Part shown: in pieces, positions 19,941-28,089 of the stretch
Numbering within the stretch: position 1 is the stretch's first letter
How the letters are laid out: each line of letters starts with the position of its first letter
NCBI GenBank assembly: GCA_009924165.1
Contig: RFSD01000004.1
Coordinates: forward strand, 1 to 32,160
DNA: 32,160 nt
DNA from: Chitinophagia bacterium
GTDB lineage: Bacteria; Bacteroidota; Bacteroidia; Chitinophagales; Chitinophagaceae
Reading direction: 5' to 3'
Program-made: the position numbers and the translations under genes
The notes under the pieces: model-generated
Told to the model about the DNA's origin: nothing
Databases searched by the model: none
Seen by the model: only the letters and a program-made list of their open reading frames with translations

Positions 19941-21028
19941 ATGCAAAACAAAAATCACTATGTAGCCATTATGGCTGGAGGTATTGGAAGTCGTTTTTGG
20001 CCAATGAGTAGGACCGCTCTTCCTAAACAATTTTTAGATGTTTTGAATACTGGTAAAACATTGGTACAATGGACCTATGAACGTTATGCAAAATTTATTC
20101 CTGCCGAAAATATTTTTATTGTTACATCCGAAGAGTATGTTGACATTGTAAAAGAACAATTACCAATCTTACCTGTTGAAAATATTTTAGCAGAACCTAG
20201 CAAAAAAAATACAGCGCCATGTATTGCCTATATCTCATTTAAATTGGCACAAATGAATCCAGATGCAAAATGTATCGTTGCGCCAAGTGATCATTTAATT
20301 TTAGAAGAGGAACGTTTTCAATCTATTGCATTACAAGCTTTGGATTTCGTAGATAATATTAAAGCACTAGCCACTTTAGGGATTCAACCTACACACCCTA
20401 ACACCGGCTATGGTTATATCCAATTTGAAGGACTAGAAGTAGCTAAGGATGTCTATAAAGTAAAAACCTTTACCGAGAAACCAGATTTAGAAATTGCTAA
20501 ATCCTTTTTAGCTAGTGGTGATTTTTTATGGAACGCAGGAATTTTTGCTTGGAGCATTAGTAATATTTTAACTGCTTTCGAAAAGTATCAACCAGAAATG
20601 TTTGAATTATTTGATCAAGAGAAGCAACATTTTAATACACCAAAAGAGCATGGCGCAATTCAAAGAATCTATCCACTGTGTACCAATATTTCTATTGACA
20701 TCGCGATCATGGAAAAGGCAAATAACGTATATGTAATGCCAGCTTCGTTTGGATGGAGTGATCTTGGAACATGGAACAGTGCTTATGAGAATATGGAGAA
20801 AGATTATTTAGGCAATGCTGTTGCTTCTGATAATGTGATTGTGATTGATGCTACAAAATGTATGATCAATTCACCAAAAGACAAACTAGTGTTAGTTCAG
20901 GGATTAGATGACTTTATTGTGATTGATACAAAGGATGTATTATTGATTTGTAGTAAGGATAAAGAACAATCTATTAAAGAATATGTAGCCGAAGTAAAGC
21001 GAAACAAAGGAGATAAATATATTTAAAT
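19941..21028 (+). CDS. manC: Mannose-1-phosphate guanylyltransferase
   Basis: MAGGIGSRFWPMSRTALPKQFLDVL, VAPSDHLI, NTGYGYIQF, FTEKPDLE, FLWNAGIFAW, FGWSDLGTWNS. Confidence 0.94.
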
Positions 21029-21078
21029 TACCTATCTTAGAGTGGTTGGGATTTTGCTAATCAAAAAATACCCCCTCT

Positions 21079-21952
21079 ATGGCAACCATTATTACAGGCG
21101 GCTAAATTAGCGATCGAGGCTGCAGGAATAGATCCTGAAACAATTGATCAAATTATTGTAGCACATAATTTTGGAGACGTACAAAATGGCACCATTCAAT
21201 CAGATGCTATTCCTGCAATAGCATCAAGAGTGAAACATCATTTAGGCATTGTCAATCCCAACTGTATAGCGTACGATATCTTATTTGGCTGTCCTGGTTG
21301 GATACAAGGTGTCATTCAAGCAGATTCTTTTATTAAATCGGGTATGGCAAAAAGATGTTTAGTGATTGGAGCAGAGACACTAAGCAGGGTCATAGACCAG
21401 CACGATCGAGATAGTATGATATTTAGTGATGGAGCTGGGGCATGTATTGTGGAGCATAGTGATGATCCTAATCAGGGTATCTTAGCCTTTAGTGTACAAA
21501 GCCATTGTAATGAAGAAGCCTATTTTTTATATTTGGGTAAATCAAATCATCCCCAAGCAGATGATACAACAAGGTATATAAAAATGAAAGGCCGAAAAGT
21601 GTATGAGTATGCCATTAAGAATGTGCCAATTGCCATGAAAGCTTGTATCGAAAAAGCTGGAGTGGGTATACATGAAGTGAAAAAATTCTTCCTACATCAA
21701 GCCAACGAAAAAATGGATGAAGGCTTTATTAAGGCATTGTATAAATTATATGATATAAAGGCTATCCCGGCAGACATCATGCCTATGAGTATCCACGAAT
21801 TAGGTAATAGTTCCGTAGCAACTATTCCAACTTTATATGACCTAGTACTTAGAGGAAAATATTCAGAACATCAATTAGAAAAAGGCGATGTCGTAATTTT
21901 TGCATCTGTTGGTGCAGGCATGAATATCAACGCAATTTGCTATCGACTCTAA
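21079..21952 (+). pseudogene. 3-oxoacyl-ACP synthase III (KAS III/FabH-like), 5' internal deletion and frame break
   Basis: The body (NPNCIAYDILFGCPGWIQGV catalytic Cys, FLHQANEKM His, ELGNSSVATIP Asn) is intact. In-frame KAS III-like sequence extends upstream of the track start GTG 21230 (AAKLAIEAAGIDPETIDQIIVAHNFGDVQNGTIQSDAIPAIASR) with no ATG/GTG/TTG. An ATG at 21079 in another frame reads MATIITGG*, resembling a KAS III N-terminus. Confidence 0.75.
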
Positions 21953-25266: not shown

Positions 25267-28089
25267 TTATAAAGTACGTTTAACTTCTTCTTCCTCAAAT
25301 GCTTCAACGATATCACCTGGCTTTAAGTCGATAAAGTTTTTGATGGTCAAACCACATTCCATATTAGAGACCACTTCTTTCACGTCATCTTTGAAACGTT
25401 TCAAGCTTCCTAATTCAGCTGCTTGGCCTTCGCCTTTGGGGAACTCAACGATACCATCACGAATAATACGAATCTTACTGTTTCTGCTCAACTTACCATC
25501 AAGTACAAAACATCCGGCAACCGTTGCTTTATCAAACTTGTAGACTTCTCTAACCTCCACATTCGCCACTATTTTCTCTTGGATTTTTGGTTCCAACATA
25601 CCTTCCATCGCACTCTTAATTTCATCAATCGCATTGTAGATGATTGAGTACATTTTAATTTCAACACCTTCTGTTTCTGCTAAGCGACTTGCTTGCATAC
25701 TAGGGCGAACGTTAAAACCAATGATGATGGCATCAGAAGCAGCAGAAAGCAATACATCAGATTCAGAAATCTGACCCACCCCTTTCAATACCACTCTTAT
25801 CGCAATTTCTTCGGTTGATAATTTTTGTAATGAATCACTCAAGGCTTCTACAGAACCATCCACGTCACCTTTGATGATAATGTTTAATTCTTTAAAGTTA
25901 CCTAAAGCCAAACGACGACCGATCTCGTCTAATGTAATATGTTTTCTAGTTCTCAAGCCTTGCTCTCTTAATAATTGAGAACGCTTGGTTGCTAATTCTT
26001 TCGCTTCTGACTCGTCTTCATATACTTTGAATTTCTCACCAGCTTGTGGTGCACCATTCAAACCTAATATTACAACAGGTGTAGACGGAGGTGCTACTTC
26101 GATACGCTGATTACGTTCGTTGAACATGGCTTTAACACGACCATAAAACTGTCCTGATAAAATTAAATCTCCTTGATGTAAAGTACCATTTTGAACAAGT
26201 ATTGTAGCAACATAACCACGTCCTTTATCTAAAGAGGCCTCGATAATTGTACCTGTTGCTTCTCTATTTGGATTGGCTTTTAAATCTAAAAGTTCAGATT
26301 CTAATAATACTTTCTCTAACAAAGCATCTACATTCAAACCTTGTTTAGCAGATAATTCTTGATTTTGGAATTTACCACCCCAAGCTTCTACTAAAATATT
26401 CATTTGAGATAATTGCTCGTATATTTTTTGTGGCTGCGCACCGTCTTTATCTATTTTATTCACTGCAAAAATCATTGGCACATTCGCTGCTTGAGAGTGA
26501 CTAATGGCCTCTTTTGTTTGCGGCATCACTGCATCGTCTGCAGCAACTACGATAATTGCAATATCTGTAACTTTAGCACCACGAGCACGCATCGCTGTAA
26601 AGGCTTCGTGACCTGGTGTATCCAAGAAAGTGATGGCTTTACCATTTGGCAAAGTCACTTCGTATGCACCAATATGTTGCGTGATACCACCGGCCTCACC
26701 TGCAACCACATTCGCGTTACGTATATAATCCAATAAAGATGTTTTACCGTGATCCACGTGACCCATGATGGTAACGATTGGAGGACGCTCCACTAAATTT
26801 GCTTGATCTTCAGCTTCCTCTTCCTCATCCATTTCTACTACATCTTCTAAGCCAACAAATTCAACTTCGAATCCAAATTCACTGGCAACCAATTCAATCA
26901 CCTCCGCATCTAAACGCTGATTGATCGAAACCATGATACCCAAGTTCATACACTTGCTGATGATATCTGCAAAGCTTACATCCATCAAGCTCGATAACTC
27001 ACTCACGGTTACGAATTCTGTTACCTGTAATTTATTATCTTCTCTTAGTTCATTATTTTCATTTTCAGCAGCTTCTTCTCTTCTTTGACGACGATACTTA
27101 GATTTCGTGCCCTTACCACGACCACCTTGGCCAGATAATTTAGCTTGCGTTTCCTTGATCTTATCTTGAATTGCTTTCTGATCGATTTCTTTTTGCTCAG
27201 CAGTCTGCGGCATATTTCTTCCGCGTCCACCACCTTGTCCACCTTGTGGACGATTGCCATTATTAGGACGATTGCCTTGGTAACCACCGCCTTGTCCACC
27301 TTGTGGACGATTGCCTTGATAGCCGCCACTACTTTGAGTTTGACCACCTTGTCCAGTTTGACCTGTTTGATTTGGTCTGCCTTGAACAGGGATACGCTTA
27401 CGAACACGTTTTTCTTCCTGCGTTAAAGGTTTTGGTCTAGTATCGCTATTAATTGGTAAATCAATCTTACCTAAAATGGTTGGACCTGTTAATTTGTCTG
27501 CTTGGATATTTGTAATTGCACCATGCACATTTTCAGGGGCGATAGAATGATCTTCCGGCGGCGCTTTTGGAGCTGGTGTTGGATTCGCTTTTTTAGCAGC
27601 CGGTTTTTTAGCAGTCGCTTTAGGAGCAGGCTCTTCTGTTTTTTTAGTGGTCTTTTTTGGTCTAGTAGAAGAGTCAATGGCAGAAAGGTCAATCTTATTC
27701 ACCACTTTTGGTGCTTCCACCTCTGGTGTTTCTACTTTAATTTTAGCAGGCGCTGCTTCAACTGGAGCTGCAGCTGCTTTGGATGTTTCCACAACTGGCG
27801 TTTCAGTAACAACTGCTTTTTTAGCTGGAGCAATTTCTTCCTCCGCTTTTTTGCTTTTGTCTGCTGTTACATTTTTTGGCAATTCCACATGGTCTGCCTT
27901 ATTCTTAGCAACCTTGTCGCTTTGGAATTCTGCCTGCAAAGCATAGTACTGACTTTCAGTTAATTTGGCTGTTGGCTTAAGGTCATCCTTAGGAAAACCT
28001 TTTTTACTAAGAAATTCAATCAAGGTATCTTGACCGATGTTGAATTCTTTAGCAGCTGCTAACAGTCTTGGTAGTTTCAATTCTGACAT
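25267..28089 (-). CDS. infB: Translation initiation factor IF-2
   Basis: [82 protein letters not shown]. Confidence 0.98.
27230..27320 (-). repeat. Short direct repeats in infB encoding Gly/Gln/Arg/Asn-rich segment
   Basis: ccttgtccaccttgtggacgattgcc occurs at 27233-27258 and 27290-27315, 57 bp apart. It encodes repeated (Y)[12 protein letters not shown]. Confidence 0.85.

Follow-up and report, generated by a model that had tools for sequence, protein, structure and literature searches.

The window, i.e. the whole stretch of DNA analysed here (32,160 nucleotides of contig RFSD01000004.1 from a Chitinophagia bacterium), carries a FabH-like β-ketoacyl-ACP synthase III (KAS III) gene that lacks 191 bp found in every close relative, and the best reading, to which we assign a probability of about 0.6, is that the locus encodes a secondary KAS III paralogue in which this deletion has very recently produced a null allele. 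The junction is documented by one contig of one draft assembly, and an assembly artefact is the main alternative.

The KAS III gene follows two genes that we, from our own reading of their sequences, take to be kdsD/KpsF-like and manC-like. The spacer between the manC-like gene and KAS III (21027-21078, + strand) is conserved in part with relatives and is followed by the original KAS III start (21079-21105, + strand), where the ATG at 21079 reads MATIITGG*, i.e. the seven conserved residues MATIITG, then a Gly and a frameshift-induced TAA stop at 21103-21105. According to the alignment KAS III family sequence begins at about 21098 in a frame other than that of the ATG and runs to 21949, giving a remnant of 284 codons without internal stops (21098-21952 including the stop codon, + strand), in which the Cys (GCPGW), His (HQAN), and Asn (GNSS) are kept. 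Stops are absent from this frame between 21041 and 21949, and its earliest ATG, GTG, or TTG is the GTG at 21230, from which a mechanical ORF call of 240 amino acids starts (21230-21952, + strand), a start that no relative uses. An earlier sequence-only reading of this DNA had taken MATIITGG* for the first residues of the same protein and had traced family sequence upstream to about 21098 with no start codon before GTG 21230; the N-termini of the relatives confirm the former, and the latter holds as well. The in-frame segment 21041-21097 (SGWDFANQKIPPLWQPLLQ) does not belong to the family, being the spacer together with the genuine start region translated out of frame.

Nucleotide comparison of the contig with three relatives (L032, L003, and L004) revealed that 191 bp, about 64 codons, are absent from the window copy, and a multiple alignment showed the same 191-bp gap against six relatives. 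The comparison resolves into two collinear blocks, which have 2 bp in common in the window (GC, 21098-21099, + strand) and are spaced apart by extra DNA in the relatives, where the missing segment codes for a conserved run of residues, for example GTGSIIPHHIKSNQDFVENTFYDEQSELIKTPNQEIVEKFKGITGIMERRYADVGVNTSDLAA. Codons 8 to ~70 are thus lost, and since 191 is not divisible by three, the reading frame is broken relative to the intact orthologues. The sequence-only reading had proposed that an internal deletion, out of frame, brought ...ATTACAGG next to CGGCTAAATTAG..., and had suggested an alignment against full-length KAS III orthologues as a check; this alignment bears the proposal out, showing the gene intact in relatives and the 191-bp gap in the window, while the size put forward, 75-90 codons (~225-270 bp), was too high. 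The missing segment was not found elsewhere in the same assembly, protein and DNA searches returning the locus itself, the paralogue, and chance-level matches.

The full gene is present in 33 of the 36 other genomes of the genus, with open frames of 335-380 codons. The remaining three (G019, G023, and G030) were checked for a true loss, and none of them provides evidence for one: in G019 KAS III is cut by a contig edge adjoining manC, in G023 (70% complete) there is no close KAS III copy and manC and purF are missing too, and in G030 (76% complete) there is likewise no close copy, with manC and purF present only as contig-edge fragments. Every relative examined whose contig reaches the gene start has the full N-terminus, which in the loci read is of the MATII[TS]GTGS type with its ATG 70-74 codons ahead of the remnant. 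Orthologous KAS III proteins from Chitinophagaceae and other Bacteroidota (L003-L111) are intact and of ~352-358 amino acids in those read, and among the nearest relatives the full-length orthologues share 71-96% identity. Close relatives also have the gene order manC-KAS III-purF in common with the window. The short architecture was found in none of the 36 genomes of the genus or the loci read, so that conservation of this form by relatives, which the sequence-only reading had named as evidence against a deletion, was looked for and did not emerge.

The remnant scores 77.6 bits against PF08545 and 46.2 bits against PF08541, both above the gathering scores, and both ACP_syn_III domains are present in it. 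Both remnant and full-length relative match along the FabH profiles (NF006829/TIGR00747; PF08545, PF08541) and retain Cys, His, and Asn. Solved KAS III structures align with the remnant from their residue ~55 on, the Cys in FGCPGW aligning to the active-site Cys region and HQAN and GNSS to the His and Asn motifs. Because codons 8 to ~70 are missing, the window copy does not have the N-terminal half of the thiolase fold in full. With 188.7 bits the remnant stays below the NF006829 cutoff of 249, but the intact relative also falls short of both curated FabH cutoffs (223.7 vs. 249 for NF006829 and 203.8 vs. 292.1 for TIGR00747), which marks this protein as a divergent Bacteroidota paralogue. The same assembly contains an intact FabH of 330 amino acids with a WIKSRTGI motif on contig 52, which exceeds the NF006829 cutoff although just 237 of its 330 residues were scanned. 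It is the second KAS III seen in the assembly. Given this canonical FabH, the window gene is, as judged from its sequence, a secondary FabH-like β-ketoacyl-ACP synthase III paralogue, and since the canonical enzyme is retained, fatty acid initiation should continue. Our search of the literature on FabH paralogues of Bacteroidetes yielded nothing directly useful.

Relaxed selection on the remnant was not observed. Its 284 codons gave a dN/dS of 0.049 relative to L032, compared with 0.029-0.059 for intact pairs of the same set, indicating strong purifying selection. Polarisation with outgroups placed 25 synonymous and 5 nonsynonymous changes on the window branch and 19 and 7, respectively, on the L032 branch, with 14 changes unpolarised, and limited the unconstrained share of the window branch to at most ~6% (4-7% depending on the baseline), a rough figure, as it combines plain parsimony counting with a Poisson limit. 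As dN/dS is that of intact pairs, the break is either very recent or an artefact. The view that the catalytic Cys/His/Asn residues and the rest of the ORF are undecayed is therefore upheld, the positions being kept at a dN/dS of 0.049. Three origins had been offered for the break, namely a recent mutation, an assembly collapse, and a truncated protein that is still expressed: intact selection favours the first, the 2-bp overlap speaks against a repeat collapse, and the lack of any relative with such a form argues against a functional short protein.

If real, the 191-bp deletion would have removed codons 8 to ~70 and shifted the frame, so that translation from the native ATG would stop after 8 residues. 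The 2-bp overlap of the deletion ends would be expected for replication slippage or end-joining-like illegitimate recombination, and we infer a microhomology-type mechanism and the presence of the deletion in cells. The deletion would be very recent, or confined to the assembled strain variant. The N-terminal segment of KAS III forms part of the thiolase core and contributes to CoA binding, and because this part is lost the allele is probably null by now.

Quite possible, even if we do not consider it likely, is that the organism has an intact gene and that the junction was created in the draft assembly, by a chimeric read pair, a wrongly closed gap, or a path through a strain mixture. The assembly is in 234 contigs, with a completeness of 97% and a contamination of 1.7%, KAS III is intact in all relatives, and the lack of decay in the remnant is just what an assembly or library fault over an intact gene would produce. 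Moreover, assembly errors account for many pseudogenes of public bacterial assemblies (PMC11017572), but that paper is concerned for the most part with frameshifts and internal stops rather than with deletions as large as this one. The rest of the window also argues against an artefact, as the 25 other genes checked align with relatives without any frame break. Sizeable gaps among them are confined to an infB-like sequence (25267-28089), which has 28-40 gap positions relative to relatives, in frame and in a low-complexity N-terminal region. Classical repeat collapse appears unlikely, since the ends share 2 bp only and no long repeat spans the site in the relatives, their direct repeats being short, imperfect, and located inside the region, with none linking the two ends. 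A genuine illegitimate deletion would fit such short microhomology, but molecules that form chimeras can likewise join at a few bases.

It is very improbable that a shortened protein made from GTG 21230 (240 amino acids) or from a non-standard start retains some function. In its favour, the remnant has an uninterrupted frame with Cys, His, and Asn in place, but this architecture was seen in no relative, what has been lost corresponds in alignment to the N-terminal segment of solved KAS III structures together with the region of the TGI..R motif, and a start at GTG 21230 would cost a further 44 residues conserved in relatives. Programmed frameshifting or another form of recoding that yields the full protein has a negligible chance, as two frames of one gene do abut, but recoding cannot bring back 191 bp of conserved coding sequence that are physically missing from the assembly.

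If the deletion is real, this Bacteroidota genus can do without its secondary KAS III, in one population at least. A further possibility, which seems doubtful to us, is that the real deletion is also fixed in the species; it would then be the first case in which this secondary KAS III, which otherwise appears near-universal in the genus, has been lost, and would point to a recent change in the lipid or specialised fatty acyl product of the species. As a gene break it is of an ordinary, routine kind: like other bacterial pseudogenes formed by small internal deletions it has one frame-breaking deletion, the ends of which show microhomology, without any additional decay, and shows no feature that sets it apart from them. 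With its exact junction, undecayed remnant, and intact relatives the locus is a clean example for distinguishing recent pseudogenes from assembly faults. No copy of the junction was found in viral contigs, and no phage records carrying the locus were found.

In distant Bacteroidota the neighbourhood of KAS III gives no functional clue, as the gene changes neighbours, and no pathway can be assigned on this basis. In two Flavobacteriaceae loci (L073:4039-4566 and L108:3852-4373) a methyltransferase-like gene, a possible functional partner, follows the KAS III orthologue; this pairing is not conserved in the family of the window. A Saprospiraceae draft (L101:2782-3861) carries an otherwise intact KAS III orthologue with one in-frame stop (EYAMK*VPLAMK), which is either an independent break or a sequencing error.
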